NCBI RefSeq assembly: GCF_030758615.1
Contig: NZ_CP132381.1
Location: forward strand, 1,798,001 to 1,862,000
DNA: 64,000 nt
Reading direction: 5' to 3'
Source: Gilliamella apis
Lineage (GTDB): Bacteria; Pseudomonadota; Gammaproteobacteria; Enterobacterales; Orbaceae
Of the stretch, positions 46,004 to 60,148 are shown piece after piece. The notes under the pieces are model-generated. The model worked only from the letters and a program-made list of their open reading frames with translations, was not told the DNA's origin and searched no databases. Every line of letters starts with the position of its first letter. Position 1 is the stretch's first letter. A program made the position numbers and the translations under genes.

Positions 46004-46117
46004 ATGACACTGAATGACGTATCAATCGCAATTTATGCCAACCGAAATCATTTATCTTATAAAAAGATCGCAGAAACAGTCAGTAAAAAAATTTTGAAGA
46101 CAATCATATTAAAATAA
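46004..46117 (+). pseudogene. HTH-like fragment (37 aa)
   Basis: ATG 46004 to TAA 46115-46117: MTLNDVSIAIYANRNHLSYK followed by KIAETVSKKILKT. The DVSIAIYA...SYKKIAETV pattern looks like the start of a helix-turn-helix domain that is then cut short. Low-confidence remnant; the rest of 45867-46174 holds nothing I recognise. Confidence 0.3.
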
Positions 46118-46174
46118 TATTAATAACCGACCAAAACCGAATAAAACCAATTACGGCTGCCATTTTACCACCAC

Positions 46175-47166: not shown

Positions 47167-47171
47167 AATTG

Positions 47172-47600
47172 TTAGTCGTCGCTATATAAATATTCACAAA
47201 GCCCATTAATATTGAACGTTGATACCGATGTCTTATCGTTAAATGTATATAAAAGATCAAGATCAACAAGATAGTTTTCAAAAGATGATACAAATTTTTC
47301 GTTTTTACAGAGTTTTTTATCAAAAAATATATCTGCATATATATCAACATCTTTTTGAAGAAATTCATCTATGCTACCTTTATAACGGTAATCATGAATT
47401 ATTGATTCATCGGATGAAATTATATTTCTTAATGACATCTTATCGTCAACTTCTATTGGAAAATCACCGAATTTTTTTTCATAATTTTTTTTTGCAATTT
47501 CAGCTAGTTCTCTTAGTACATCGCTTTTATCAGCAAAACTTGGTGATGTAAATAAAATGCATGCAGCCAAAGGTAAAGCTAATGCAATAATTTTTTTCAT
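47172..47600 (-). CDS. Predicted exported protein of unknown function
   Basis: 142 aa with a Sec signal peptide (MKKIIALALPLAACILFTSP, cleavage likely after SFA near residue 24). The mature part is acidic, with two Cys that could pair (KKLCKNE and NGLCEY). No family recognised. Stops 6 bp before the integrase pseudogene start; upstream CTCCC (GGGAG) is a good ribosome binding site. Possible lysogenic-conversion gene. Confidence 0.55.
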   Translation of the reverse strand: MKKIIALALPLAACILFTSPSFADKSDVLRELAEIAKKNYEKKFGDFPIEVDDKMSLRNIISSDESIIHDYRYKGSIDEFLQKDVDIYADIFFDKKLCKNEKFVSSFENYLVDLDLLYTFNDKTSVSTFNINGLCEYLYSDD

Positions 47601-47616
47601 CTCCCTATCCTTATTT

Positions 47617-47880
47617 TTAGTTCTTAAAAATACTATTTTTTAATAGCATATATTCATCATCTGCTATTGCTTCTTCTTTTTTTAATTTCGAAATACGCTT
47701 TAATTTCTCCAAATCATCGTTTGAAAATTCAATAGATTTTTCTATATGTTGTCATTGATGTTAGGGCTTTCTTTACCTGTATATAGCCATTTGAGATTAA
47801 TCCCTGAGAGCTGAAACGCTCGCCGTGTTCTCGTAAAAGCGGTATACCAACCTTGTTCAGTTCACTGCCAAATTGTGATT
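47617..47880 (-). pseudogene. Phage repressor (CI-like) and SHOCT-like fragments
   Basis: In one minus-strand frame: AFQLSGINLKWLYTGKESPN, the end of an HTH domain as in CI-like repressors (GINxxWLxxGxGxP), then a stop. The following frame gives DDLEKLKRISKLKKEEAIAD and DEYMLLKNSIFKN, resembling a SHOCT-type C-terminal tail, ending TAA at 47617. Both are remnants; no intact frame. Confidence 0.4.
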
Positions 47881-47988
47881 GTAGTGATTACACCTATATC
47901 AATATAAGCAAATTCTCAATTTCACTAAGCTGAATTACTAATTTACGGTTAATAATAATAAAATTAAGAAAGTGAATTAATACTTATT

Positions 47989-48189
47989 TCAGTTTTTTCT
48001 TTTTTGATCTAATCGCTGTTCAATTAACTTTTCTTGAATTGATGATCCTGCTGCAATGTTATTTATATTTACTTCCGTATTTACTTTGACCATTAATTTC
48101 ATTTCGTCTTCTGAAAACAAGCTTTTACATAATTGACAGTAAGTTGATAAATAATTAAGAGCATACTCTTTATTTTTATCGAAAATCAA
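47989..48189 (-). CDS. Small hypothetical protein (66 aa)
   Basis: MIFDKNKEYALNYLSTYCQL onward with two Cys in CQLCKSL, and KVNTEVNINNIAAGSSIQEK. GGAG lies 8 nt before the ATG, which supports translation. Not recognised; may be the 5' part of a longer phage gene such as a small terminase-like protein. Confidence 0.4.
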   Translation of the reverse strand: MIFDKNKEYALNYLSTYCQLCKSLFSEDEMKLMVKVNTEVNINNIAAGSSIQEKLIEQRLDQKRKN

Positions 48190-48330
48190 AATAGCTCCAT
48201 CTAGTTCAGAGTTATTTTGATATTAAACATAAATTAATTTATCGTAAAGAAAATTTTTTCTAAAAGCATAATTATAGTAGTTAAAATATGGCAGTTTATA
48301 AAATGCGGATGACGTGTATTTAGGAAATAA

Positions 48331-48639
48331 CTAGTTACTATTAAAACTATCTCTTACTTTAGTTATCAATGTCGCAATCTGATTACCATTTATAACTCGT
48401 TGTACTGCTAATTGATTAGCCATCCGTATTCCATTTAAGTTCTCTATTAATTCTTTAGAGTCAGCTGTTACAATTTCAATGCTAATTCTTCTACTATATT
48501 ATTTAATATAATAGCTGTGTTAAGTATCTGTTTGATTTTCAACAATATTGAAATCACCATAAATTTTTTTTAACTCTGGTTCAGCAATTTTAAATAAACA
48601 TCTTTCAAACTTTATTTTTTCTTTGTTTGTATATGCCAT
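48331..48639 (-). pseudogene. Unknown prophage gene with two in-frame stops
   Basis: ATG 48639 with an excellent AAGGAGG 7 nt upstream. One 103-codon frame reads MAYTNKEKIKFERCLFKIAE, then EPELKKIYGDFNI, two stops (around codons 40 and 47), and resumes RRISIEIVTADSKELIENLN and MANQLAVQRVINGNQIATLI to TAG 48331. No family recognised. Confidence 0.4.
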
Positions 48640-48850
48640 TTTATTACCTCCTTACTAATTCTTTCTAAAAATCAATATAAAAGTTATATCATAAATTTCA
48701 TTTTTGTATAAATAAAGTTGTAATTTTGAACTGTATGACTACACTGCACGAAAACGAAAGATCAACGGAGGATCAAACAATATTTTAAATTCTGACAAAC
48801 TGTATATATATAAAAAAATCTCACAGGTATCGTTATAGAAAGATAGGTCA

Positions 48851-49510
48851 TTATTTCAAATCAGAATCATCAAAAATAGAATAATCGAATTTCCATTTGT
48901 GACTTGGATTTCTATTACATTGCACAATATTTTCACTATAATTTTTATTTATTTTTATTTGTCTAAGTGATAAGTTTCCATCACATTTATGTACATTACA
49001 TTTCCCTGTAATTTTTGTAATAAAAACCGCTCCATATCTATTTGATTCAAGGCTATACCCTAATGGTAAAAGAAGAAAGCGGCATCTAATTAGTAATAAC
49101 CCAATTACAAAAGTTACCGCCAAAATCCCCAAAAACAGTATAAACAGAAAAATCACAAAATAGTTTACATTTAAAATATCTGTAAAAGCATTTGTAAAAA
49201 TGGTTATAATATCAGCTAATAAACCTATAGCACTAATAATACTTATCCATTTTGTTTTTACTGTTTTCCCTACAATACTTAGTTTCTTAATGCTATTTCG
49301 ACTCATAAAACAATCATTTTTAGCAACTTGAGGATTATTGATAACTATTGGACCATAATTATTTCCCAGTATATTGTTATTTATATTATTATCGCCGTTT
49401 ATTTTATTGTGATTTATTATTGATTGATTAAGAGATTTTTGTTTTTCTCCACAATAGCAACAAAATGTTGAATCCAATGGTATCTCTTTTTTACAACAAA
49501 AACATATCAT
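48851..49510 (-). CDS. Zinc-ribbon membrane protein of unknown function
   Basis: 219 aa, intact. N-terminal zinc ribbon with two CxxC knuckles (MICFCCKKEI and FCCYCGEK), an Asn-rich linker (about 35-60), two TM segments (about 88-110 and 118-147), then a cytoplasmic C-terminal domain with CNVHKCDGNLSLRQI and QCNRNPSHKWKFD, where further Cys/His residues could bind a second zinc. Likely a real prophage or island accessory gene. Function unknown. Confidence 0.55.
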   Translation of the reverse strand: MICFCCKKEIPLDSTFCCYCGEKQKSLNQSIINHNKINGDNNINNNILGNNYGPIVINNPQVAKNDCFMSRNSIKKLSIVGKTVKTKWISIISAIGLLADIITIFTNAFTDILNVNYFVIFLFILFLGILAVTFVIGLLLIRCRFLLLPLGYSLESNRYGAVFITKITGKCNVHKCDGNLSLRQIKINKNYSENIVQCNRNPSHKWKFDYSIFDDSDLK

Positions 49511-49592
49511 ATTATCTATACCTAAATTAAGATTAAAAAACAGATGCTAATTACATCTGTTTCGATTATCTCTTATATATAAATATTGCTAA

Positions 49593-50320
49593 TTAATCAA
49601 GTAAATAAGGTTCAAATATTACAATCTCCTCTCCCATCCAATCATTGAGTTGTAAAAACCTGACCTAAAGTGGTTTAATTTCGTTTCGGGCAAATACTTT
49701 TGATGCCTTTTCTGGATCACCAAATCCACTCGTATTTTTAGGAGAGATCCCCATCAGTGATGGTGGTACTCGGTGTGCTGTTAAGACATCATCTTGAATG
49801 ACTGATTTAATATCGATAAAGTTATCTTTAGCTGCAACCCCACCAACTAGAATAAGTTTTAAATCATCCTATTTACCATTAGGAACATACATTAATAAAT
49901 TACGAAAGTTACCTAGTCCGCGACTGTTTGTATCGCCTTTTTTAGTTCATCAATATCTTTTTCATTACGTAATTGATTTGATAAATATAAAATAAATTAG
50001 GCATGCGAATCATTTTTAACATAACGCTGCCTAAATACTATCTCTAGGTTATCCAGCCAAATCGAATTAATGGGAGCTAGAAATTTGGATAATTCATAAA
50101 TGTCTTGATTGATATCAGGCGCTAACATATTCCATATCGGGCCTTTTTGAATTCGTGATCCTCAAAATTTTGATATATGTACCAATATTGGCTTGATTCA
50201 ACGGCTCACGGGTATATTTTGCCAACGTTATTTTTAACCCATCGATTTGCCTCATCATGTTTGCGCGTTTTCCTAAATAACAATTTCCTAAAATTAAATA
50301 ATCATTTTCTATTCGTTCAA
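49593..50320 (-). pseudogene. P2 gpQ-type phage portal protein, degraded
   Basis: Fragments in changing frames align with P2-like portal proteins: LGNCYLGKR, PDINQDIYELSKFLAPINSI, IVFRQRYVKNDSHA stop FILYL, NEKDIDELKKAIQT, GLGNFRNLLMYVPNGK, VAAKDNFIDIKSVIQDDVLT, AHRVPPSLMGISPKN, FGDPEKASKVFARNEIKPL and a final MGEEIVIF to TAA 49593. Several stops and frameshifts. In P2 the portal is the first gene of the head cluster. Only this head gene remains. Confidence 0.7.
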
Positions 50321-50379
50321 ATGATTAGCGAAATAGATACTTATGATGAATAAACGTACTATAATTAATATTATTTTGA

Positions 50380-50448
50380 GAACAGAACAAGGTTAGTCTT
50401 ACCACTCAATGAAACGGCGCTCTTTCTAGCCCTTTACCAGCCCACCAT
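50380..50448 (-). pseudogene. Ash/Icd-like fragment
   Basis: From ATG 50448 the minus strand reads MVGW, stop, RARKSAVSLSGKTNLVLF. MVGW...(K)S(P/A)VS...N plus the surrounding nucleotides resemble the Ash-like stub at 12278-12385 near the other prophage end. A remnant of a P4-type satellite or prophage end. Confidence 0.35.
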
Positions 50449-50715
50449 AAATAGACGTGACTAAGCTTTACGCATAAAAATTCCACTTAAGTGGTTTATA
50501 CACCGTTGAACTAACAAGAGGTCAATCTCGACGTTAAATTTTGCTAGCATTAATCCAATTTAACAAAAGAGTATTTTTATGACAGGGGTTATTTAAGATT
50601 AGGTAAACAGGCAAAATATAAACCATATTAAAAATATAGTTACCGCCACTTAATATTTTTTAAGATTTTATCGGAAGGAAAGGCAACAGGTAAGTTATTG
50701 ATTTTATAGAATTTT

Positions 50716-50733
50716 AATGGTGGGTTGTGAGGG
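50716..50733. repeat. Left attachment site (18-bp direct repeat of tRNA-Lys 3' end)
   Basis: AATGGTGGGTTGTGAGGG here is identical to 59303-59320, which covers the last 16 bases of tRNA-Lys(CUU), including CCA. This is the expected duplicate left by site-specific integration and defines an element of about 8.6 kb. Confidence 0.85.
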
Positions 50734-50792
50734 CATCACTTTAAAAAATATCATATTAATTATATTTAATTAATTTCACCAATTCAACCTAC

Positions 50793-50813
50793 CGTATACA
50801 AAAACGTATACAA
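50793..50813. repeat. Candidate integrase arm-type site, left end
   Basis: A 21-bp sequence, containing GTATACAAAAACGTATAC, identical to 59159-59179 near the right end. It is two copies of CGTATACAA in tandem. One more copy in inverted orientation lies at 59131-59139. Paired placement just inside both att repeats fits integrase or excisionase binding. Confidence 0.6.
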
Positions 50814-50857
50814 TTTTTTCTGTTATATTCATAACAATGTGTTTAGTATAACATAAT

Positions 50858-50883
50858 AAAAAAGGTACTTAATAGTACCTTTC
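50858..50883. terminator. Terminator of the Rep_3 gene
   Basis: AAGGTACT/AGTACCTT perfect 8-bp stem with TAAT loop and a T-run on the minus strand (A-run 50857-50863), 6 bp after the rep stop. Confidence 0.75.
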
Positions 50884-50888
50884 AAAAA

Positions 50889-51869
50889 TCACAAGACTAG
50901 TCCCATACCTATTTTTTTTGCTTTAATATCACTATTTTTTTCTTCCATTTTTCTTTTGTTATAAAATTTTTTATCAGTATTTATTTTTGCTTTATTTTCT
51001 ACATCAGAGTATTTAAAGTTAAAAATAAATTCAATTGCTTCAACATATTTACTGCTATTATATATTTTATTATATCTAACACTTATATTTGTATACTTAT
51101 TAATTTCGTTTACTGCTTTATCAATAACACTTTCTCTAAAAGAATTAAATCTTAAATATTCATTTTTTAAGTCTAAACATTCTTTTAGTTCTTCAATTTT
51201 TATAACTCTTTTTTTAATGTTTTTATATTTAAACTCATTTAACATTTCATAAATTCGTACAGAATGTTTATTTTTAAAATTAACAACATGCTTTAAGTCA
51301 TATTTACTAAAATTATCTTTTAAATCAATAAGATAATTCATAATTTCATTACTAAATGTTATTTCAAAATAGCTTAAATTATTGTAATATTTTTTTGATG
51401 AAATAAATCTAAATTCATGTTTTATTTCATCATTTTTAATTCTCACAACTCTATTAAATAGTGAATCTAACGTTAAATTTATTGTGTTATAAAAGTCACT
51501 TTTTTTAATTTTAAATCTATCACAAAATTCATTAGATTTTATTTGTATTGTTCTTTCGCAAAATTCTTCTCGTGAATCAAGCTTAGATATTGCTAATAAA
51601 ATAATTCTTTGTTCGTTTAAACTTAGCTTATAACTAGCATTAACTAAATAATTACTTTTGTATACAAGTAATTTTTGTTGTTGTTCTTCTGTTTTTACTT
51701 GTCTTATAACATCATTATTTTTTTTATTTTTTGTTTGTTCTGCGCTCGTTGTTATAACACTGTTTTTAGCAACTGCTTCATCAAATTCTTTAATTATTTC
51801 ATTATCAAAATCAATATCATCATCATCATCAAATAAATCAAAAGCATTATTACTATTATCTATTATCAT
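50889..51869 (-). CDS. Rep_3-family plasmid replication initiator
   Basis: Binds iterons and starts replication. 326 aa, intact. An acidic N-terminal tail (FDDDDDIDFDN) precedes two winged-helix domains. WH1 begins KSNYLVNASYKLSLNEQRI, the signature of RepA/RepB-type initiators; WH2 includes HVVNFKNKHSVRIYEMLNEF and LDLKNEYLRFNSFRESVI; C-terminal basic tail. Six iterons lie directly upstream and a TTGACA promoter between. Very AT-rich codons (mainly AAA, AAT, TTA), unlike host genes. It indicates that the integrated element can replicate as an episome. Confidence 0.85.
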   Translation of the reverse strand: MIIDNSNNAFDLFDDDDDIDFDNEIIKEFDEAVAKNSVITTSAEQTKNKKNNDVIRQVKTEEQQQKLLVYKSNYLVNASYKLSLNEQRIILLAISKLDSREEFCERTIQIKSNEFCDRFKIKKSDFYNTINLTLDSLFNRVVRIKNDEIKHEFRFISSKKYYNNLSYFEITFSNEIMNYLIDLKDNFSKYDLKHVVNFKNKHSVRIYEMLNEFKYKNIKKRVIKIEELKECLDLKNEYLRFNSFRESVIDKAVNEINKYTNISVRYNKIYNSSKYVEAIEFIFNFKYSDVENKAKINTDKKFYNKRKMEEKNSDIKAKKIGMGLVL

Positions 51870-51904
51870 AATTATTCTCCATTTTTTATTGTTTTTATAA
51901 TTTT

Positions 51905-51932
51905 GTTATAAAAAAATATATGTGTTTGTCAA
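51905..51932 (-). promoter_or_regulatory. Promoter of the Rep_3 gene
   Basis: On the minus strand TTGACA (51927-51932), 16-bp spacer, TATAAC (51905-51910), 36 bp before the ATG. It lies between the iterons and the gene, so Rep binding could autoregulate it. Confidence 0.65.
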
Positions 51933-51961
51933 CATAAAAACAAATTTATTTTTGTCATGCA

Positions 51962-52090
51962 GTTAGTTTTTTATGTCATGTGGTTAGTTTTTGTTGTTAT
52001 GTAGGTTAGTTTTTTATGTTGTATTAGTTAGTTTTTGTTGTTGTGTAGTTAGTTTTTTGTGTCGTTCAAGTTAGTTTTTTATGTCAACAT
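51962..52090. repeat. Iteron array (six direct repeats), replication origin
   Basis: Six copies beginning GTTAGTTTTT at 51962, 51983, 52005, 52027, 52048 and 52070, spaced 21-22 bp, that is two helical turns. The second half of each unit alternates between a TATGTCATGT-like and a GTTGTTATGT-like form. Placement upstream of a Rep_3 gene is typical of iteron origins. Confidence 0.88.
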
Positions 52091-52255
52091 GATTTTTAAA
52101 CCCTTACGCTAAAAGGCTTTGTAATATGTCTAAATATATAAACAAGTAATAAATAAATAAAAATAGAAAATATAAACACTTTAAAAAATAAGACTTGTAT
52201 ATAAAAATAATGTCGTAATTTTTTTACAAAAAATCACGTCATGTTACCAACCCCC

Positions 52256-52369
52256 AAACCCCCACGCATGGGGGCTTATCTTCTTGCGAAGAGTATTTTA
52301 TTTATTTTTTTGTTTTTTGTTTAGATTCGCTTCTAGCGAATCTCAAGCCCCCATTCACCGATGTGAATG
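52256..52369. other. Cluster of alternative hairpins near the origin
   Basis: A locally GC-rich island in an otherwise ~20% GC element. Hairpins: CCCCCA/TGGGGG (52259-52274), TCTTC/GAAGA (52279-52292), AGATTCGCT/AGCGAATCT (52323-52343) and CATTCAC/GTGAATG (52352-52369). ATGGGGGCTT (52268-52277) is also perfectly complementary to AAGCCCCCAT (52345-52354), so the first and last hairpins compete with a long-range 10-bp pairing. Could be part of the origin, a single-strand initiation site, or a regulatory RNA upstream of the primase-like gene. Confidence 0.55.
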
Positions 52370-52390
52370 AGGTATAACAATAAAAAAGAA

Positions 52391-52428
52391 TTGGCGACAA
52401 CAAAAACTAACCACATAACATAAAAACT
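52391..52428 (-). repeat. Two inverted iteron-like units
   Basis: Read on the minus strand, AGTTTTTATGTTATGTG (52412-52428) is followed by GTTAGTTTTTGTTGT, nearly matching two successive units of the main iteron array but in opposite orientation. They end 13 bp before the -35 box of the primase-like gene, so Rep may repress it. Confidence 0.6.
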
Positions 52429-52432
52429 TTTG

Positions 52433-52489
52433 AAGTTGTGTTGACAATATTAAAAAAATGAATAAATAAATATATATACATAATAAAAA
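52433..52489 (+). promoter_or_regulatory. 57-bp promoter/leader repeat, copy 1
   Basis: Begins AAGTTGTGTTGACAATATTA with a consensus TTGACA (-35) at 52441-52446, followed by an AT-only stretch containing TAAATA/TATATA -10 candidates. The whole 57 bp is identical, in inverted orientation, to 56162-56218. Drives the primase-like gene. Confidence 0.7.
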
Positions 52490-52511
52490 TAACAAAAAAA
52501 GGAGTGTATAT

Positions 52512-53408
52512 ATGTATACGTTTGATGATTGTGAAACAACAATAAATGAAGTTCTGGAAGCAGAACATTTTATTATTACAAAAATTAAAAAAGACAAGTT
52601 TTTTAAAAATCCATTAATTACAGAATCCAAAATTGCAAATTATTTAATTACACATAAAGAACTAATTAAAAAATTAAGAATTTTAAACAATAAAAAAAAG
52701 TGGAATATTTATATAAAGCCCATTAATCGTTTTTTTTACTACATGATTTTAGATGAAGTAGAAATAAAAAAATTAGATGAAATAAAAAAGTTACTTAGCT
52801 CAATTTTTATAAACTTAGTTGTATATACAAGTAAAACTCACTGTCAAGTTTTATTAAAACTTGACAAATTAGTTTTAAAAGAAGAAGATTATTTATTAAT
52901 ATACAAATATTTAATTAAAAAATATAGTAAAACTAAAAAAGAAAATGAGCATGGTTTTTATTGTTTTTTTGATGATTTTGTTATTAATAATTTTACTGAT
53001 GAAGAAATAAATGAAGATGATGAAAAAGAAAAATTTAGAATTTACGCAACTTATATTAGACAAACATATCATATTGATTTATTAGTAAAAAGAATTAAAA
53101 AACTTATAAAAGAAGAAAAAATAGAAGAAACAATAGACACACAAAATGAAGATAGAACAACTATAACAAAAGAAAAATGGAAAGAAAAATTAAAAATTAT
53201 TGATATTAAACATAAAGATATAACAGGTTTTGACAAATACTTGCTAATTATAAAAGAATTATTGAAAGAAAATTATAATAAAAATGATTTAATAAATTTT
53301 ATTCAAAAAAATATTATAAAAAATAATGAATTAGATGTTATTGATTTAGTAAATAAAGCATTTAATGAGTTAGCTAAAACAAAACCAAAAAAATTTAAAA
53401 TAAAGTAA
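52512..53408 (+). CDS. RepB-type AEP primase-like protein
   Basis: 298 aa, intact, with AAAGGAG 8 nt before ATG. The middle resembles the RepB-primase/AEP family: WNIYIKPINRFFYYMILDEV (normally NIYxxP...LLDDL), then LVVYTSKTHCQVLLKL (normally VVxTSPGxxQxWxxL, the SxH-type catalytic motif), then EHGFYCFFDDFVIN (normally HFGRLPGFTN). The catalytic acidic pair would be the D-E of LDEV. The C-terminus is Lys/Glu-rich and helical. It would make primers at the element's origin. This is a distant match; a helicase-less replication protein of another fold cannot be excluded. Confidence 0.55.
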   Translation: MYTFDDCETTINEVLEAEHFIITKIKKDKFFKNPLITESKIANYLITHKELIKKLRILNNKKKWNIYIKPINRFFYYMILDEVEIKKLDEIKKLLSSIFINLVVYTSKTHCQVLLKLDKLVLKEEDYLLIYKYLIKKYSKTKKENEHGFYCFFDDFVINNFTDEEINEDDEKEKFRIYATYIRQTYHIDLLVKRIKKLIKEEKIEETIDTQNEDRTTITKEKWKEKLKIIDIKHKDITGFDKYLLIIKELLKENYNKNDLINFIQKNIIKNNELDVIDLVNKAFNELAKTKPKKFKIK

Positions 53409-53430
53409 TTTAAACCTTTTTAACAATATT

Positions 53431-53455
53431 AAACCCTTATAAAATAAGGGTTTTT
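53431..53455. terminator. Bidirectional terminator
   Basis: AAACCCTTAT/ATAAGGGTTT perfect 10-bp stem with AAA loop, followed by T-run, between the convergent primase-like and recombinase genes. A second hairpin, AAAATAAC/GTTATTTT, follows at 53490-53508. Confidence 0.75.
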
Positions 53456-53534
53456 AAATTCCGCTACGCTTCTAATCTTCAAAAACAACAAAATAACTTC
53501 GTTATTTTATTATTTTTAAAGATTGCTATATTAA

Positions 53535-54653
53535 TTAATACGGTCTAAACGTTTTATCATTATTTAATGCTTTGTTTTTATTATAAATATAAGTAAAATC
53601 TCTATTTTTTGTGTGTTTAATTTTATGTGTTGCAGTAGCAGAAAAACTTTTATTACGTGTTCCGTGCTGATAATTGCCATACTCAACTTGGCTTTTATCT
53701 GTTCTATGCCCCAAAAACTTTGCAATTGTATCATCATCAATTTTTGATTTTTTTAAGTCACTGGCTACTTTATGACGAAAACTATAAAGTGACACATCAC
53801 TTTTATATTTTCTATAAAAAATTTTAGTTAAACTATTATAATCTTTCTCTGATTGTTTAATTTCGTATTTTTTACCACTAAAATTACTTCTAACAATTTT
53901 TATAAAAAATTGTTTATATAAATCACTTTCAAAATCAACACTTACTTTACATGTTCTTAGTTTTTGTCCCGCATAATCATTAACTTTAACGCCACAAATT
54001 GTCGCTTCAATATAATATTTTTTATCAATTTTAATTGCTTTTAATTCTATACCATTTTTAAACTCTGCTGGTCTTAGCCCAAAAAGACTATATACTAATA
54101 ACTGTTCTGTATATTTATTTTTTTGTTTTTCGGAAAGTTCATTTATAATTTTTTCAATATTTTCAAGTTTTTTTAATGTCTTTTTTTTACTATTATTTTT
54201 GTTTAATTTTGGTTTTTGTTTATTAATAGCAAATTGTTCTTTAAATAAGACCGAAAGTTTAAAAGCTTCATCAGTTAATTTAATCATATCTTCCATATTT
54301 TTTTGTTTTCGTGCGTTATCGCTACGCTTTTGTAATTCTTTAATTTCACTAATTAAACCAAATTTTAAAGATGCTTTGTACAAGTCATAACATGCTATAG
54401 TTTTTGCTTTATGCAGTAATAAATTAACTTCATTTTTTTCAATATTATTATTTTTTAATAATCTTTTATAAGTATTCAAATATTGTTTATATGTTTTTTC
54501 ATTTTTAGTCGTATGTAAATCTAACTCGTCTAAAATTTGATTAATATAATAATTTTTACAAAGTCCTAATGGTCTTTTTGAATCTAATGCCAGTACTTCA
54601 GCTTTTAATTCATAAAATTCTAGCAAGTCTTTTTGTTGTTTTGTTAGCTCCAT
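53535..54653 (-). CDS. Second tyrosine recombinase of the element
   Basis: 372 aa, intact. The C-terminal half carries tyrosine recombinase motifs: LFGLRPAEF (catalytic Arg I), SLYSFRHKVASDL (Arg II, with Tyr where His is usual), FLGHRTDKSQVEYGNYQHG (GH and the candidate nucleophile Tyr of YGNY). The N-terminal half is a long, basic, helical region (KKKTLKKLENIEKII) unlike the P4-type integrase of the same element. With its palindrome-rich upstream region it could resolve dimers or invert/insert DNA. Different from the tRNA-directed integrase at 57877. Confidence 0.75.
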   Translation of the reverse strand: MELTKQQKDLLEFYELKAEVLALDSKRPLGLCKNYYINQILDELDLHTTKNEKTYKQYLNTYKRLLKNNNIEKNEVNLLLHKAKTIACYDLYKASLKFGLISEIKELQKRSDNARKQKNMEDMIKLTDEAFKLSVLFKEQFAINKQKPKLNKNNSKKKTLKKLENIEKIINELSEKQKNKYTEQLLVYSLFGLRPAEFKNGIELKAIKIDKKYYIEATICGVKVNDYAGQKLRTCKVSVDFESDLYKQFFIKIVRSNFSGKKYEIKQSEKDYNSLTKIFYRKYKSDVSLYSFRHKVASDLKKSKIDDDTIAKFLGHRTDKSQVEYGNYQHGTRNKSFSATATHKIKHTKNRDFTYIYNKNKALNNDKTFRPY

Positions 54654-54691
54654 AATGCCCCCTTATCATTTCAATTAACTTTTTTGTTTTA

Positions 54692-55028
54692 TTTTTTAGC
54701 TGTTTTGCTAAAAAAATAGAGTTTTGAGGGCATATTAAGCATTGTAAATACAAGCAAAGCTTGTATTGTTCGCTATATTGTTTTTATTATTTTTTTATTT
54801 TTCGCTACAGCATCAAATTAAAAAAATAATAAAAAAAACATGCTCAAATTATTTTGATTTCGCAAAGTTCACTAACTCGTTTCACTTGTTCGTTCTCAAT
54901 GCTCATCACAATAATGGGTAAGTTCGAGCTCATCGCTCGTCAATTTTTTTACTTTTCGTCTCACTTCAAAGTAAAAAAACTGAACACTTACCACCTTATT
55001 CAGACAAATTGTTTTGTCTGAATAAGGT
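54692..55028. other. Palindrome-rich noncoding region upstream of the second recombinase
   Basis: No gene from 54654 to 55161. Perfect inverted repeats: TTTTTTAGC/GCTAAAAAA (54693-54715), AATACAAGC/GCTTGTATT (54747-54767), a T/A-rich 15-bp pair around 54781-54835, TTTTTTTACTTT/AAAGTAAAAAAA (54944-54979), and a 16-bp ACCTTATTCAGACAAA pair with a TTGT loop (54993-55028). The segment 54861-54940 is less AT-rich and unexplained. Candidates are recombination core sites, a resolution site or a transfer/replication origin. Confidence 0.55.
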
Positions 55029-55161
55029 ATTTATAATTGTCTAATTTAATGAAAAAATTTTGTCGGATTTTATACCCTCAACATATACTTTTTTATTAAT
55101 TTTTTGCGTTTTGTCAACACCCAAAACACACAAATTAATAATAAAAATTACATAAAAAAAG

Positions 55162-55190
55162 CAAAAAAAAGGCACTAACAAGTACCTAAT
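55162..55190 (-). terminator. Terminator after the DnaQ-like gene
   Basis: AGGCACT/AGTACCT 7-bp stem (one wobble) with AACA loop, then eight T on the minus strand. Confidence 0.7.
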
Positions 55191-55206
55191 TTTTTATTTT
55201 TTATGT

Positions 55207-55764
55207 TTATTTTTGATTTATTTTTTTGATTATTTTGCTTGTCATCAAACAATCATTTAATGCTTTATATGTTCTATTTTTTTGCTCATTTAAAAGTTTA
55301 AATTCATCATCTTTATAATAATGTGTATATGCAGTTAGAAGAGATTGGAAAGTATAATTACCATAATCTTTATTCCAGTCTTTATATACATTGTTTGAAA
55401 ATAAATTCATTACACATTTAGCATCAAAATTTATTAATTCAAGTTTATTAATATTCAATGTACTTTTTAAAATATCTAATAAAAATGATGCGTTATAAAT
55501 GTATACTTTTTTATTACATAAAATACTTTTTAAATCATCATAAATATCTAAAAATGTGGGTGAATTTTTAACAATTTCATCAGTTATTTTGTGAATTTGT
55601 ATAGCAGAATCAGATATATTCTTTTTGGGTTTTACAAGTGTGTTTAATAAAACTTTTTCATTGTTATTTACTATTGCTATTTCTACAATTTCATCATCAA
55701 AATTTTCATTTAACCCCATTGTATGTGCATGCATAACTAAATATTCTTTATTGTTTTTATTCAT
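55207..55764 (-). CDS. DnaQ-fold pseudo-exonuclease
   Basis: 185 aa, intact. The fold signature of DEDDh 3'-5' exonucleases is clear: YLVMHAHTMGLNENFDDEIV against the usual FxDTETTGLxPxxDEIIEIA, then VYIYNASFLLDILKS against HNAxFDxxxL, and NRTYKALNDCLMTSKII against HxALDDAxxTxxI. The catalytic residues are nearly all replaced: motif I D and E by His and His, motif II Asp by Leu, motif III His by Tyr; only the last Asp (ALND) remains. The frame is intact and the replacements are not nonsense, so it may be a non-catalytic nucleic-acid-binding protein. Confidence 0.7.
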   Translation of the reverse strand: MNKNNKEYLVMHAHTMGLNENFDDEIVEIAIVNNNEKVLLNTLVKPKKNISDSAIQIHKITDEIVKNSPTFLDIYDDLKSILCNKKVYIYNASFLLDILKSTLNINKLELINFDAKCVMNLFSNNVYKDWNKDYGNYTFQSLLTAYTHYYKDDEFKLLNEQKNRTYKALNDCLMTSKIIKKINQK

Positions 55765-55861
55765 AAAATATCCTCTTTTTTATTATTGTTATTATTAATA
55801 TTTAATAAAAATATTATTTAATTTTTATTTAATCAAAATTATTTTTTGTAAAAATTTGAAT

Positions 55862-55890
55862 AAAAAAAAGACACAATTAAGTGTCTTTTT
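55862..55890. terminator. Bidirectional terminator
   Basis: AAAAGACAC/GTGTCTTTT perfect 9-bp stem, 6-nt loop, T-runs on both strands, between the small membrane protein gene and the DnaQ-like gene. Confidence 0.75.
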
Positions 55891-55900
55891 AATAATTTTT

Positions 55901-56137
55901 TTATTTAATTTTTTTAGCTTTTTCTATTGCTCTATTAATCAATTTTTGTTCACGTAATTCTTTCATTTGTTTATTTTCATCAAATTTATTTCGTTTAACT
56001 CTGCTTTCAACGTATTTTTGCCATGCTTCTTCTTCATCCTGATCTCTTATATCAGCTCCGCAACTTTTTAAAATTAGTAAAAAAGCCCAGCCCAAAAAAA
56101 ACACAATAATACCTAAATTTATAAATGTTAATTCCAT
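55901..56137 (-). CDS. Small single-pass membrane protein
   Basis: 78 aa: one TM segment at residues 5-24 (FINLGIIVFFLGWAFLLILK), then a highly charged helical cytoplasmic part (DEEEAWQKYVESRVKRNKFD). Driven by the second copy of the 57-bp promoter/leader; GAGG precedes the ATG. Unknown function; comparable in form to exclusion or immunity proteins and to phage-satellite membrane proteins, but that is only analogy. Confidence 0.55.
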   Translation of the reverse strand: MELTFINLGIIVFFLGWAFLLILKSCGADIRDQDEEEAWQKYVESRVKRNKFDENKQMKELREQKLINRAIEKAKKIK

Positions 56138-56161
56138 ATATATATACCTCTTTTTTTATTG

Positions 56162-56218
56162 TTTTTATTATGTATATATATTTATTTATTCATTTTTTTA
56201 ATATTGTCAACACAACTT
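56162..56218 (-). promoter_or_regulatory. 57-bp promoter/leader repeat, copy 2 (inverted)
   Basis: Reverse complement is identical over all 57 bp to 52433-52489, with TTGACA at 56205-56210. It reads leftward into the small membrane protein gene at 56137. The match to copy 1 extends imperfectly into the A-rich ribosome-binding-site region. Confidence 0.7.
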
Positions 56219-56328
56219 AAAAAGTTTTTTTGTCGTATAAGCAAATAAATCATTTTTTATACTTATTATTTATAAGTTGTTACTTTTTAATATTTTTTTT
56301 GAAAGATTTGAACGATCAGTCACACCCT

Positions 56329-56353
56329 TTATGATAGAAATAAACTATCATAA
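56329..56353. promoter_or_regulatory. Operator-like inverted repeat
   Basis: TTATGATAG/CTATCATAA perfect 9-bp inverted repeat separated by 7 bp, in the divergent region between the genes starting at 56137 and 56440. Its symmetry suits a dimeric repressor, perhaps the AlpA-like protein or a host regulator. Confidence 0.45.
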
Positions 56354-56439
56354 TATATTAAATTGATCTGCAAAACCGATCGATATATAATTTATTTATT
56401 TTTATTTAACTTAAATTTTTCAAAAAAAAGGAGGCGAAA

Positions 56440-56880
56440 ATGCCTTACAGTTATAGTGGTGTCGTTAAAGATATTCAATATCAAATAGAAAAACAAAAAC
56501 AAAGATTGGCTTATACCATTCCAGCCGATGATGGTAGTGAAGAATATGAAAAAAAAGTTAAGATGATGACAAATCAAATTGCTAATTATCAATTAAATAT
56601 TCAAAATGATACAGAAGTCATTTATAACTTATTGTTTCAAAGGGATTTTTTACTAATAGCAATTAATCAATTTTTAACAGAGACTGATCATCAAACAAAG
56701 CAATTTTTTATTAATTTTTTGAATAAAGTTAAATCAGAAAAAGAAGCTGATGAACAATATAAACAAAAATTCAAAAACTGGGTTTATCAAGAAAATTTTT
56801 CAGAAAAACTAATTTGGGAAGTTAAAAACCCTGACAAAATCAAACATAACCCAGTTCTAAATTTTCCTAATTTTCAATAA
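56440..56880 (+). CDS. Soluble helical protein of unknown function
   Basis: 146 aa, intact, with a strong AAGGAGG ribosome binding site. Starts MPYSYSGVVKDIQYQIEKQK, has a coiled-coil-like first half and a second half with NWVYQENFSEKLIWEVKNPD. No family recognised. First of two plus-strand genes; the next starts 17 nt on, so they are probably cotranscribed. Confidence 0.55.
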   Translation: MPYSYSGVVKDIQYQIEKQKQRLAYTIPADDGSEEYEKKVKMMTNQIANYQLNIQNDTEVIYNLLFQRDFLLIAINQFLTETDHQTKQFFINFLNKVKSEKEADEQYKQKFKNWVYQENFSEKLIWEVKNPDKIKHNPVLNFPNFQ

Positions 56881-56897
56881 TATAAGGATAAAAGGTA

Positions 56898-57284
56898 ATG
56901 AGCTATAATGGAATAGATGATCTAATTATTAATTATGAAAAAACTCAACAAGAACAACAGAAACAACAGCTAGAGCAACAAAAAATTGAAGAACAAAAAA
57001 AATTAGAACTTAAAAAAAAATTAGAGAAAAATAGAATTGAACAACAAAAAGCAATTTGTAGAAAAAACTTAATATTTTGGTTATTAATTTTTGTTTTTGA
57101 GTATTTATTAACTACATTTATATTTAGTTCAATTTTTAATACAGCTAATCCAATAAAAATAATAAAAATTTTTGCAGGTCTGGGATCTGGTACACAAATG
57201 TTTGTTTTTGTTGGTTTTTACTTATTTGCTACAGGTATTATTTGTTGGGCGTTAAGTTATATAATTGTAAGACCTGACAAATAA
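56898..57284 (+). CDS. Coiled-coil membrane protein of unknown function
   Basis: 128 aa. Residues 12-52 form a Gln/Lys/Glu-rich coiled coil (EKTQQEQQKQQLEQQKIEEQ), followed by two TM segments (about 58-76 and 95-122). Partner of the preceding soluble gene. Unknown function; the pairing of a soluble and a membrane protein in a mobile element is compatible with, but does not show, a defence, exclusion or immunity role. Confidence 0.55.
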   Translation: MSYNGIDDLIINYEKTQQEQQKQQLEQQKIEEQKKLELKKKLEKNRIEQQKAICRKNLIFWLLIFVFEYLLTTFIFSSIFNTANPIKIIKIFAGLGSGTQMFVFVGFYLFATGIICWALSYIIVRPDK

Positions 57285-57310
57285 CAAAAAAACATCTTAA
57301 CAATAATATA

Positions 57311-57332
57311 AAAGAGGGTTTACCCTCTTTTT
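57311..57332. terminator. Bidirectional terminator
   Basis: AAAGAGGGT/ACCCTCTTT perfect 9-bp stem with a TT centre (effective smaller stem), T-run on the plus side; it lies between convergent genes and overlaps the stop region of the AlpA-like gene. Confidence 0.7.
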
Positions 57333-57832
57333 CATAAGACTTTTTTTAATATAAGTTTTTTTGAAGATGAATTATCTTTTTTTGGTAAAACTTCATTTAA
57401 AACAATATATTTTTCTACATTACCAGCAAAAAACAAATCAACTTCATCAATTTTTATACACGGCATAACAAAACCTTTATTAGTTAAAAAATTATGTTTA
57501 TATTTTTGTAATTCTTTTAAAGCTGTTTGTTTAGTAATCAATCTATTTATATCTAATTCTTTTTCTAAATTTTGCGTATTCTCAACAACAATTTTATCTT
57601 CATTTGCATCATAAAAACTATTAAATCTGGGTCTGTTATATAGCCAATCTTTTATTTCTTCATACAAAAAACACATCTTTTTTTTACCAATCTGTATTGG
57701 TTTAGGTAGTTTAATAGTCTCATCATTCAACCATCTATAAATTGTAGATTCATTACAACCAAGTGCATTAGCAAGCTCCGCAAAACTTATTGTTTGTATA
57801 GATACTTTAAAATCTGATAAGTATTTTTTCAT
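57332..57832 (-). CDS. AlpA-like HTH regulator/excisionase
   Basis: About 166 aa from ATG 57832. Residues 10-65 contain a MerR/AlpA-type HTH: SFAELANALGCNESTIYRWL, then KPIQIGKKKMCFLYEEIKDW, as in AlpA proteins that switch on integrase genes in P4-type elements and PICIs. The C-terminal ~90 residues are not recognised and make it longer than classic AlpA (about 70 aa). It ends 44 bp upstream of the integrase start on the same strand reading; in fact it lies downstream of the integrase gene, which is transcribed first. Confidence 0.65.
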   Translation of the reverse strand: MKKYLSDFKVSIQTISFAELANALGCNESTIYRWLNDETIKLPKPIQIGKKKMCFLYEEIKDWLYNRPRFNSFYDANEDKIVVENTQNLEKELDINRLITKQTALKELQKYKHNFLTNKGFVMPCIKIDEVDLFFAGNVEKYIVLNEVLPKKDNSSSKKLILKKVL

Positions 57833-57876
57833 AAAAAACATTCGAAATAACAATAAATAACATATTAAATATAATA

Positions 57877-59112
57877 TTACAAAATTGAAATATTACTAGC
57901 TTTTTCAACATAATTACTCCACCATATCATTAATTCGAATCGTTTATCAATATATTTAGCATTGTTATAAATCGCCCTGACCTTATTTTTATCTACATGC
58001 GATAATGATATTTCAATTAGATCTTGATGAAATTCTAAACTTTCATTTAATACAGTTGAAGCAATAGATCTGAAACCATGAGCAACTAATTTGTCCTTAT
58101 AACCGATTCTTTTAAGCATTGTATTAACTGTTTCTTTGCTAGTATGCTTGTTTTTATCATTTAAATATTTTCTATTTATAAATACATATTTATAGTTGGG
58201 TGGTGTTATAGCTTTCATTTTTTCTAAAATTTTTAAAGCTTGTGGAGATAATGGCACTATATGCTCTCTGCGCATTTTCATATTATCATTCGGAATAATC
58301 CATAATTTTTTTATAAAATCAATATCTGACCACTTCGCTGTAGCCGCTTCGCTTGGTCTAACCATAGTTAAAAGCTGAAAATAAGCAAGTAATTTAGTTT
58401 GTTGTGTAGCGGGATATTCATTAATAGCTTTTAGAATTAATGGTAACTCATCTGGCGGTAAAGTTGGCATATTTTTAGATCTATGTGTGACAAATTTTAG
58501 CTTATCAAACTTATTATATTCAATAAATCCCATTGTTTTAGCATATTCAAAAACTCGACCTATAACTTGGCAGATTCGGTTTACTAAATCTGTCTTATTT
58601 TGATTAATAAGTGGCTGTAAATATTCTCTAAAGTCTGCTGGTATTAATTCATTTACATTTTTATTAACTAAATTTTCATGAATAAGAATATGATTTACTA
58701 TTATATTTGTGTTTCTTCTAAATGTTCCTTGTGTAATTTCTCCTAGATCTAAAAAATTCAATTTTTGATGATTTACCCATTCCCAAAATATATTTACAAA
58801 TTTAAATTTTTCTTCTTTTTGTTTTTGTTCTTCTTGTAGTTCGTTGATGTTTACGGGATCTATACCATTTGATATTAGGGTTTTAAATTCATCTCTTATT
58901 TCTCTAGCTTCGGCAAGAGAAATGAAAGGATATTCCCCCAAGCTTAGCTGATTAGGCTTTTTTGTATCGGGTCTTAAATATCTAAACCGCCAAATTTTAG
59001 ACCCACTTCTTTTTACTAATATAGATAAACTATTACCGTCACTTGCTTCATAATTTTTATCTTTAATTTTTAAATTTTTAATTTTTAGGTCTGTCAATTT
59101 GTTAATTGCCAC
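57877..59112 (-). CDS. P4-type tyrosine integrase of the AT-rich element
   Basis: 411 aa, intact, GTG start at 59112. N-terminal arm-binding domain (DUF4102: NKLTDLKIKNLKIKDKNYEA, LGEYPFISLAEAREIRDEF), SAM-like core-binding domain (about 100-200), catalytic domain with MVRPSEAATAKWSDI (Arg I), AHGFRSIASTVLNE (HxxR), LSHVDKNKVRAIYNNAKY (H and nucleophile Tyr). It sits about 190 bp from tRNA-Lys(CUU), the att site. The CGTATACAA repeats lie just upstream of its start and may bind it. Confidence 0.9.
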   Translation of the reverse strand: MAINKLTDLKIKNLKIKDKNYEASDGNSLSILVKRSGSKIWRFRYLRPDTKKPNQLSLGEYPFISLAEAREIRDEFKTLISNGIDPVNINELQEEQKQKEEKFKFVNIFWEWVNHQKLNFLDLGEITQGTFRRNTNIIVNHILIHENLVNKNVNELIPADFREYLQPLINQNKTDLVNRICQVIGRVFEYAKTMGFIEYNKFDKLKFVTHRSKNMPTLPPDELPLILKAINEYPATQQTKLLAYFQLLTMVRPSEAATAKWSDIDFIKKLWIIPNDNMKMRREHIVPLSPQALKILEKMKAITPPNYKYVFINRKYLNDKNKHTSKETVNTMLKRIGYKDKLVAHGFRSIASTVLNESLEFHQDLIEISLSHVDKNKVRAIYNNAKYIDKRFELMIWWSNYVEKASNISIL

Positions 59113-59130
59113 AAGCTTTCCCTACCATAT

Positions 59131-59179
59131 TTGTATACGTTTATATGAATATTATAAGCGTATACAAAAACGTATACAA
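59131..59179. repeat. Integrase arm-type repeats, right end
   Basis: TTGTATACG (59131-59139) is followed, in inverted orientation, by two tandem CGTATACAA units (59159-59179) identical to 50793-50813. Located between the integrase start and the tRNA, so they may also control the integrase promoter. Confidence 0.6.
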
Positions 59180-59302
59180 ATGCATATGCAATTTAGTGCA
59201 ATTTGACGCAATTTTACGCAATGAAATGCAAGTAATGTTTTCAGCACAAAGCCTTGTGCTACAAGGAATTTTTAATGATTATACATGAAGTTAAAAAAGA
59301 GG

Positions 59303-59320
59303 AATGGTGGGTTGTGAGGG
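59303..59320. repeat. Right attachment site (18-bp repeat within tRNA-Lys)
   Basis: AATGGTGGGTTGTGAGGG, identical to 50716-50733. Covers the CCA end and acceptor strand of tRNA-Lys. Confidence 0.85.
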
Positions 59321-59380
59321 GATCGAACCCGCGACCAATTGATTAAGAGTCAACTGCTCTACCGACTGAGCTAACAACCC
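59305..59380 (-). tRNA. tRNA-Lys (CUU)
   Basis: 76-nt cloverleaf on the minus strand: acceptor GGGTTGT/ACAACCC, D-arm AGCTCAGTCGGTAGAGC, anticodon loop CTCTTAA (anticodon CTT), T-arm GGGTTCGATCCCC, encoded CCA. Integration site of the AT-rich element, which lies on its 3' side. Confidence 0.93.
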
Positions 59381-59485
59381 ACTAAAGGAATAAAAGCTAT
59401 TGTATAGAAGTTTAGGTTTTAATGCAAATACTCTAAAATAAATACAGCCTAACTAACTAATTTTAAAAAATAAATTATTTTTTAA

Positions 59486-59800
59486 TTACATAGTTAAATG
59501 CAAACCTACAATACCAACCACAATTATAGTAAGACCGAATATTCGACTAAAATTTTTCGGTTCCTTAAAAATAAACATATTAGCCAATACTGCACCTGAA
59601 GTACCTAGCCCTACCCATACTGGATACACAATACTTAAATCCAGATACTTTAATGAAAAATAAAATAATGAAAACGAAATAAAAAAACCGCCCCAATATA
59701 GCGTTAATCGGAATAAATTTTTTTGTTGTGAATAAAGTTTAAGACCTATAGCACCAATAACTTCAAATATTGCAGCAGTTAAAATAAATAACCATCCCAT
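59486..59800 (-). CDS. SMR-family transporter subunit, paired type
   Basis: 104 aa, four TM helices, conserved Glu13 (AAIFEVIGAIGLK). YPVWVGLGTSGAVLA replaces the EmrE motif. Second gene of a pair with 59825-60148; such adjacent, dissimilar SMR genes usually form heterodimers (YkkCD, MdtIJ-like). Substrate unknown. Confidence 0.8.
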   Translation of the reverse strand: MGWLFILTAAIFEVIGAIGLKLYSQQKNLFRLTLYWGGFFISFSLFYFSLKYLDLSIVYPVWVGLGTSGAVLANMFIFKEPKNFSRIFGLTIIVVGIVGLHLTM

Positions 59801-59824
59801 ATGATATATCCAAATTTTAGTTAA

Positions 59825-60148
59825 TTAGCTATCAGCTCGTTTAAGTTGCACAACACCAATAATAATTAATGCAACAAAAAATATTTCAATAAGTTTGATT
59901 TCTTTACCAAACAAGACCATATCTATAACTAATGAACCAATCGCACCTACACCAGAAAAAATCGCATACACTGTACCTGTAGGAATAGTCTTACATGCAC
60001 TGGTTAAAAAGGTAAAATCAACAACGATTACCATTATGACAATAACCCAATGCCACCACTGACTTGCAGTAGTGAAACCAAATACCCAACACAATTCAAA
60101 AAAGCAGGTGAGAACAACAAATGCCCACTCTTTATTCCTGCTGTTCAT
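59825..60148 (-). CDS. SMR-family transporter subunit, paired type
   Basis: 107 aa, four TM helices, conserved Glu18 (TCFFELCWVFGFTTA), IPTGTVYAIFSGVGAIGS in helix 3. First gene of the pair, 24 nt before its partner. ELCW-type first helices occur in YkkC/guanidinium-related SMR proteins, but no guanidine riboswitch is visible upstream. Confidence 0.8.
   Translation of the reverse strand: MNSRNKEWAFVVLTCFFELCWVFGFTTASQWWHWVIVIMVIVVDFTFLTSACKTIPTGTVYAIFSGVGAIGSLVIDMVLFGKEIKLIEIFFVALIIIGVVQLKRADS

Follow-up and report, generated by a model that had tools for sequence, protein, structure and literature searches.

A probable integrative plasmid with iteron replication at a tRNA-Lys gene of Gilliamella apis

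Analysis of a 64-kb stretch of the Gilliamella apis genome (contig NZ_CP132381.1; hereafter the window, in whose coordinates positions are given) focused on an AT-rich element of 8,587 bp, which is bounded by 18-bp direct repeats at 50716 and 59303. Judging from sequence comparisons, this element is likely an integrative plasmid and a member of a small family within Gilliamella. The reading is supported by its placement at the 3' end of a tRNA-Lys gene, the intact state of this gene, empty sites in relatives, and a backbone found in three strains. An earlier inspection of the same DNA (the original prediction) had proposed a compact element that is integrated in tRNA-Lys and equipped with iteron replication of its own, which the attachment (att) sites, the empty attB and the shared backbone bear out. 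Its further claim that this was not a described family is too strong as to the kind, because SGI1 and BcenGI2 combine iteron/Rep_3 replication with a tyrosine integrase; the family itself, as well as the folded leader of its second recombinase (Rec2), was not met in the open-licence literature searched. Hence, Rep_3 replication joined to tRNA integration is a known kind of element, and the apparently new part is this family and the Rec2 leader.

Attachment sites, integration genes and empty sites

The 18-bp repeat AATGGTGGGTTGTGAGGG is present in identical copies starting at 50716 and 59303, both located as originally predicted, and the latter copy overlaps the 3' end of tRNA-Lys(CTT) (59305-59380, minus strand, ARAGORN). 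Despite the insertion this gene is intact, scoring 67 bits with the Rfam tRNA model, so that direct-repeat att sites and an intact tRNA gene occur together, as in integrative elements at tRNA 3' ends. The 15-mer core GGTGGGTTGTGAGGG has exactly two copies within 64 kb (50719 and 59306), and allowing up to three mismatches resulted in three matches in the window versus 0.27 expected. A 21-bp sequence, CGTATACAAAAACGTATACAA, occurs near both ends in the same orientation with exact copies at 50793-50813 and 59159-59179; these are placed where arm sites of an integrase or excisionase would be and can be considered putative arm-type sites. The G+C content inside the element amounts to 23.1% (0.231) compared with 33.6% to its left (window 1-46000) and 33.5% to its right, in agreement with the predicted AT-richness relative to the flanks. 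Nine open reading frames (ORFs) of at least 78 amino acids (aa) occupy 74% of the element length, encoding Rep_3, a primase-like protein, Rec2, a DnaQ-like protein, proteins of 78, 146 and 128 aa, an AlpA-like protein, and the integrase (Int). The features are as follows, with two sister elements found in Gilliamella sp. Pra-s52 (G027) and Gilliamella sp. App6-5 (G033) serving for comparison.

50716..50733, no strand: attL, 18-bp direct repeat identical to 59303-59320; the left-hand flank abuts tRNA-Lys in genomes G018 and G025
50793..50813, plus: putative arm-type site CGTATACAAAAACGTATACAA of the left end, exact copy at 59159-59179
50889..51869, minus: Rep_3 replication initiator, 326 aa (PF01051, PF21205)
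51900..52510, no strand: probable replication origin (oriV), AT-rich, with six AAAAACTAAC iterons on the minus and one on the plus strand
52418..52513, plus: putative promoter/leader stretch of the primase-like gene; inverted copy at 56138-56233, 93%
52512..53408, plus: RepB-primase-like protein, 298 aa (BLASTP to the PF16793-positive protein of Pra-s52; position and strand as there, between iterons and Rec2)
53535..54653, minus: Rec2, second tyrosine recombinase, 372 aa (PF00589; relatives in Pra-s52, App6-5 and small plasmids)
54918..55028, minus: structured leader of rec2, palindromic hairpin and three-way junction (covariance model, covariation, fold z-score)
55112..55117, minus: TTGACA, possible -35 box of rec2, conserved with Pra-s52 and App6-5 in the alignment (promoter role putative)
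55207..55764, minus: 185-aa protein of the DnaQ/DEDDh exonuclease family with a replacement in the first catalytic motif (PF00929)
55901..56137, minus: 78-aa orphan (match to phrog_27855, unknown function, E 3e-5)
56138..56233, minus: putative promoter/leader copy for the 78-aa gene, inverted copy of 52418-52513
56440..56880, plus: 146-aa orphan, homologue at the same end of the App6-5 element
56898..57284, plus: 128-aa orphan ORF, hydrophobic C-terminal half (by eye), family matches all with E >0.01
57332..57853, minus: AlpA-like protein, probable excisionase/regulator, 173 aa (PF05930)
57877..59112, minus: P4-type tyrosine integrase, 411 aa (PF00589, PF13356, PRK09692)
59159..59191, plus: putative arm-type sites of the right end (repeat comparison within the window and with genomes G030 and G033)
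59303..59320, no strand: attR, second copy of the 18-bp repeat, which overlaps tRNA-Lys at its 3' end
59305..59380, minus: tRNA-Lys(CTT), intact target gene (ARAGORN, Rfam)

The gene adjacent to the right-hand repeat encodes the expected P4-type integrase, matching PF00589 with 89.5 bits and Arm-DNA-bind_3 (PF13356) with 74 bits; its score against PRK09692 (286.8 bits) lies under that model's cut-off of 434. It is 78% identical to the integrase of App6-5 and 44% to that of Pra-s52. The AlpA-like assignment likewise stood (PF05930, 29.9 bits over a cut-off of 21), and this protein shares 52% identity over 126 aa with its App6-5 counterpart.

Empty target sites in relatives had been proposed as a check of the prediction. 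Among 35 fetched loci tested, 12 (two per genome from six genomes) held a complete tRNA-Lys(CTT) site, and two of the six genomes (G018 and G025) have an empty attB, with the left flank of the window abutting the tRNA directly. The corresponding local alignment scores of 145 and 105 compare with at most 71 in shuffled controls (n=50). A third genome, G030, carries the right end of the element beside tRNA-Lys (score 143) including an identical arm site, the contig ending there, while other DNA adjoins tRNA-Lys(CTT) in the remaining three (G032, G005, G026). The arm sites recur at the right end in App6-5 as well, and at its left end with two mismatches.

Replication module, cargo and sister elements

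As originally proposed, the element encodes a Rep_3 initiator with iterons. Both Rep_3 domains are present (Rep3_N, PF01051, 106 bits; Rep3_C, PF21205, 50 bits), and the protein is 45% identical over 201 aa to Rep of Pra-s52. The iteron AAAAACTAAC has nine copies in the window, seven of them in the element, versus 0.64 expected window-wide, and none of 100 shuffles reached nine. Six are clustered at 51962-52079 on the minus strand with a spacing of 21/22 bp, i.e., two helical turns, and a seventh is inverted at 52402-52411 on the plus strand, ahead of the primase-like gene. A Rep_3 initiator and clustered iterons at helical spacing, the hallmarks of an iteron (theta) replicon, are thereby both present. 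A longer degenerate iteron pattern was not distinctive, with four matches versus 1.13 expected and four of 100 shuffles reaching four. The predicted primase-like gene could be retained based on its syntenic relatives, which match RepB_primase (PF16793) with 56 and 37.5 bits. A 96-bp stretch ahead of this gene recurs inverted ahead of the 78-aa gene with 93% identity and may represent a promoter/leader of both.

The cargo comprises a DnaQ/DEDDh-family gene (55207-55764; PF00929, 44 bits), left unnamed in the original prediction, and small orphans. The D-x-E residues of epsilon, which we take to be catalytic, align with H12-A-H14, and because of this replacement nuclease activity of the DnaQ-like protein is improbable. 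Homologues of the 146-aa protein were found in two of 44 Orbaceae genomes including its own; the one in App6-5 shares 44-46% identity over about 100 aa and lies at the same end of the element. For the 128-aa orphan, family matches were obtained only with E >0.01, and the hydrophobic character of its C-terminal half was read by eye. The degenerate DnaQ-like protein and the divergent primase-like protein would be in accordance with a formerly mobile plasmid that is now stranded as a fixed, inactive island. We consider this unlikely in view of nine ORFs that are open, 18-bp repeats and a 21-bp arm site that are identical at both ends, and a site that is empty in two relatives, all of which fits a recent arrival.

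Family scans of the nine ORFs gave no relaxase or recognised mobilisation family of the sort that marks integrative and mobilisable elements (IMEs), and profile and PHROG scans of them provided no convincing family for capsid-size, packaging or phage-interference genes, consistent with the original prediction in respect to capsid, packaging and relaxase genes. Weak PHROG matches were set aside, among them those linking the helix-turn-helix of the AlpA-like protein to a terminase small subunit (E 0.0016), the 146-aa protein to a tail protein (E 0.059), and Rep to a virion protein (E 0.074). P4-like satellites and phage-inducible chromosomal islands (PICIs) have a P4-type integrase, an AlpA-like protein and a tRNA site. 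The window element resembles them in all three respects and in its size of 8.6 kb, and could be pictured as a phage satellite in which a plasmid replicon has taken the place of the interior. It differs, however, by an iteron plasmid replicon and by the lack of convincing phage-hijacking, capsid-remodelling, packaging or D5-type primase-helicase families in its nine ORFs. Furthermore, five scans of viral contigs, one using the Rec2 alignment and the others Rep and the DnaQ-like, primase-like and 146-aa proteins, yielded no relative within their reach of close relatives, and Rec2 had no match in 50,697 phage records. A phage-satellite origin therefore appears highly improbable to us.

Relatives of the backbone are rare. 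Rep was found in four of 99 genomes including its own, two of these copies being broken or fragmentary, and Rec2 in three of 44 Orbaceae genomes including its own. With a Rec2 profile, eight of 394 genomes of the order passed E 1e-10, a full-length match being present in three (its own, Pra-s52 and App6-5), and a genome-contig scan with Rec2 returned only the latter two strains' own records. The Pra-s52 element is complete, spans about 13.3 kb between 16-bp AATGGCGCACCCGAAG repeats, one of them at the 3' end of tRNA-Arg(TCG), and encodes a 190-aa protein, Rep_3, proteins of 144 and 98 aa, a RepB primase (PF16793, 56 bits), Rec2, DotA/TraY, small proteins, an AlpA-like protein and Int. Its Rep gene is preceded by 21-bp-spaced repeats, which differ in sequence from the window iterons. 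In App6-5, one contig carries tRNA-Lys, Int, the AlpA-like gene and the 146-aa homologue, a second the left end with an identical 18-bp att site and the 190-aa gene, and a third the primase, Rec2 and DotA/TraY genes; because of the shared ends, we infer that the pieces form one element at tRNA-Lys. Independent scattering of the genes, which would have spoken against the original prediction, was not encountered in Pra-s52 and App6-5, where the backbone genes co-occur. Since there is a relative in tRNA-Lys of App6-5 and a complete element of the same backbone in tRNA-Arg of Pra-s52, the sequences argue for a family with a conserved backbone in three strains and not for a chance mixture. Its cargo differs by member, with the degenerate DnaQ-like gene and small orphans here and a DotA/TraY orphan in Pra-s52 and App6-5. 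This outlines a compact line of Gilliamella integrative plasmids, whose backbone is conserved and whose cargo is exchangeable; a phage-type integrase is accompanied in it by iteron replication, a primase-like gene and a second recombinase. Another genome (G003) contains a broken Rep_3 gene beside tRNA-Ser (L051 5448-6106), perhaps the remains of a further family member.

The DotA/TraY genes of the two sister elements, both orphans (L048 15804-18473, L050 3064-5748), are full-length, reaching 363 and 350 bits with TIGR04346 (cut-off 100), and turn helper-dependent transfer into a concrete question. They allow the possible, albeit less than probable, interpretation that the family members are SGI1-like satellites of a conjugative IncI-like (type IVB) element, which excise, replicate and ride the mating pore of the helper. 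The DotA/TraY protein could then replace a helper subunit, an idea that is compatible with the integrative-plasmid reading. In favor of this, no other DotA/TraY match was detected in the genomes of Pra-s52 and App6-5 at E 1e-10, and both are devoid of a homologue of a 1008-aa protein from the transfer region of G029, a genome of the same genus that has TraO_IncI1, DotH and DotA/TraY genes. In addition, SGI1-encoded parts of the type IV secretion system (T4SS) are reported to be interchangeable with those of the helper. On the other hand, the window element itself has no DotA/TraY gene and its nine ORFs no recognised relaxase, DotA/TraY could serve exclusion instead, and the 1008-aa protein has no family match, its TraU role being guessed from place and size. 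On the same single contig of G029, Bacteroides-type MobB, MobC and TraG-like genes adjoin the IncI-like transfer region (L105 5289-8555, 12407-14932).

The second recombinase and its folded leader

Rec2, in line with the predicted second recombinase, matches PF00589 with 27.7 bits, just over the cut-off of 27.1. Residues R194, R293, H316 and Y325 are invariant in 10 sequences, corresponding to the catalytic Arg/Arg/His/Tyr set, while the first box-II His is replaced by Tyr (Y290) in 10 of 10; we take these five positions to belong to the tyrosine-recombinase motifs. A Rec2 profile gave no match to solved structures at E 0.01. The protein is 51-52% identical to its counterparts in Pra-s52 and App6-5 and about 30% to proteins of small plasmids. 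By tblastn, relatives were detected in 29 of 72,556 plasmid records; in 18 the match extends over 80% or more of the query, and all are predicted to be non-mobilisable. Among the 25 plasmid matches listed, 23 are plasmids of 2.3-3.8 kb (from Klebsiella, Citrobacter, Escherichia, Enterobacter, Tatumella and Pseudoalteromonas), the others measuring 6 kb (Paracoccus) and 82.5 kb (Polaromonas). One E. coli plasmid of 2,345 bp has no annotated gene other than that of the recombinase. RNAI-like (ColE1-type) matches, all sub-threshold, were obtained in three of five plasmids (L062, L059 and L081) searched at E up to 5; they suggest that these plasmids replicate without a Rep protein and that the recombinase does not act as their initiator. 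The idea of the recombinase as initiator was dropped at this point, not refuted. XerC/XerD and a phage integrase are listed among genes found with ColE1 plasmids (PMC5864857).

Upstream of the recombinase gene, the window, Pra-s52, App6-5 and the enterobacterial and Tatumella plasmids read have a common design, consisting of a palindromic hairpin (P0) followed by a stem (P1) enclosing two hairpins (P2 and P3). On the plasmid side the leader was found on L058-L064, L068, L078, L079, L081 and L082 (2.3-3.8 kb, Enterobacteriaceae and Tatumella); minimum-energy folds differ in P1-P3 for L060, L062, L068, L078 and L079. In MAFFT alignments of the full leader set and of eight plasmid leaders, some rows had their 3' part misplaced. 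A covariance model was therefore derived from five plasmid sequences, selected for being alignable, with a structure hand-written from single-sequence folds. In the 402 kb searched this model finds the window leader (54918-55028, minus strand) with 50.7 bits (E 8e-9, E-values being rough), those of Pra-s52 and App6-5 with 41.6 and 38.7 bits, and the held-out plasmids L058, L062 and L078 with 52-54 bits. A sequence-only model of the same alignment recovers Pra-s52 (22.6 bits) and the held-out plasmids (28-35 bits) but misses the window and App6-5 places, its best window match being 9.5 bits elsewhere. Altogether, the covariance search returned 31 rows. Sixteen of them are strong and correspond to 15 loci, since one plasmid is split at its record start; the other 15 are weak (E 0.03-0.64), and several of these represent the reverse strand of the same hairpin.

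Pairing was evaluated on 12 of the 15 strong loci, excluding the split L060 as well as L063 and L082, whose scores equal those of L058 and L061. In these sequences 94.6% of cells pair compared with 74.5% in shuffles and 43-50% upon sliding, and changes on both sides are seen in 23 of 33 pairs compared with 13.4 in shuffles (0/500 reached 23), figures that are flattered by an alignment fitted to the structure. The number of pair types was less decisive (39 versus 32.3, with 15/500 shuffles reaching 39). A comparison of cognate with swapped arms in 10 sequences, the arms being chosen by eye, resulted in 97% versus 62% pairing for P1, 94% versus 73% for P3 and 96% versus 45% for P0, none of which was reached in 5000 permutations. 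The fold z-score of the window leader is -8.3. The best-conserved letters are the outer P0 arms, as expected of a recombinase core site, and P1-P3 conserve pairing over letters, as expected of a functional fold. The TTGACA box kept with Pra-s52 and App6-5 would place the whole fold within the rec2 transcript.

The Rfam 15 models gave no leader match across window 50000-60000 at E up to 0.5, returning just the tRNA and an isrK-like match elsewhere, and on the L079 leader one match at chance level (Clostridiales-1, 19.7 bits, E 1.7, gathering score 48). The Rec2 leader constitutes a covarying noncoding structure without accepted Rfam match in these searches, tied to one recombinase family of Gilliamella, Enterobacteriaceae and Tatumella. 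At four distant plasmid recombinase loci (L065, L066, L067 and L080) the model found nothing up to E 1. A separate search of six loci from five order-level genomes gave three weak matches (L074, E 0.002; L072, E 0.008; L073, E 0.09). The one in L074 lies within another recombinase ORF and was rejected. The L072 match (2467-2554, minus strand, 19 bits; an Enterobacterales genome) contains a perfect 13-bp palindrome; it is located on the same strand as a distant recombinase ORF, 133 bases upstream of it, and is kept as a lead. When applied to 394 whole genomes with strict filters, the model found one leader and missed the known positives G000 and G033, rendering the negatives uninformative. A second long pairing after the three-way junction is apparent by eye in window 54800-54916 (minus strand) and at the same place in plasmids, e.g., TTGCC/GGCAA in plasmids and ATTATTGTGAT/ATCAAAATAAT in the window.

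Integron integrases read folded attC sites. By analogy, the fold might be a working recombination part, as RNA or folded single-strand DNA, that is read by Rec2 for where or when to recombine, a notion we hold to be doubtful. If true, Rec2 and its fold would be a new type of portable plasmid-stability module, occurring on ColE1-like and iteron plasmids alike.

Proposed life cycle and relation to known elements

Following the integrative-plasmid reading and the protein families involved, Int would have inserted the element at tRNA-Lys and would excise it as a circle, with AlpA acting as excisionase or regulator. The excised form would replicate by the theta mode upon binding of Rep_3 to the iterons, assisted by priming through the RepB-type primase-like protein. 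Rec2 might resolve multimers of the circle at the palindromic P0 site ahead of the rec2 gene, whose folded leader could control Rec2 synthesis or action. Transfer would most likely be helper-dependent.

Several observations weigh against this picture. The role of Rec2 in multimer resolution is proposed from association. The App6-5 element is split over contigs, its Rep_3 being a fragment beside a transposase on a fourth one, and G030 shares the right end with no Rep or Rec2 match up to the point where its contig stops; because of the latter, ends and core of the element may be separable. For the DnaA box, four one-mismatch matches in an 11.9-kb stretch versus 4.2 expected revealed none above chance; some iteron plasmids are without a clear DnaA box. 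The primase-like protein has no Pfam match of its own above 11 bits, aligns to the PF16793-positive protein of Pra-s52 with BLASTP E 6e-5 (24% over 111 aa), and gave a poor AlphaFold prediction from a three-row alignment (pLDDT 44). As a query it found only itself in 44 genomes, which makes this assignment the least secure homology of the element, and it had no match in the plasmid search. In respect to the small plasmids, the RNAI-like matches reach 25.9-36.2 bits compared with a gathering score of 47, and none were found in L079 and L080 at E up to 5 or in L058-L061 at E up to 0.1.

Among known systems, SGI1 is one of the closest. Its iteron oriV and rep are reported to be required for its replication (PMC7433901), and an IME review lists Rep_3 in both SGI1 and BcenGI2, the latter at tRNA-Ala (PMC5704250). 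SGI1 has a tyrosine integrase, an iteron oriV with Rep and an HTH_17-type protein encoded before rep, comparable with the window element, and its replication stabilises the element beside its helper. It is described as an element of 42.4 kb in the 3' end of trmE, which is mobilised by IncA/IncC plasmids and has mobilisation and T4SS genes. The window element, in contrast, measures 8.6 kb, resides at tRNA-Lys, encodes a RepB-like primase and Rec2, and has no recognised mobilisation gene. Compared by descriptions, it stands apart from the SGI1 family as defined by the trmE site and backbone, given its tRNA-Lys site and differing gene families. It may rather serve as a small, tractable SGI1 counterpart for asking why integrated elements retain plasmid replication. 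BcenGI2 of Burkholderia cenocepacia, likewise compared by its description, shares Rep_3 and a tyrosine integrase at a tRNA gene 3' end, but is listed as an IME with toxin-antitoxin. Small plasmids such as NZ_AP025661 and NC_002070 (pPZG500) have the Rec2 family and the folded leader upstream in common with the window element; they differ in being free circles of 2.3-3.8 kb, with no Rep_3 annotated on those read.

Left of the element, an isrK-like small RNA match is located at window 50476-50550 (minus strand; 33.8 bits, gathering score 50). A 4.5-kb stretch at 46100-50640 is without match at the corresponding place in G018; it includes a short ORF (46739-46921) presumably resembling a phage integrase fragment and is perhaps an older, decayed insertion.

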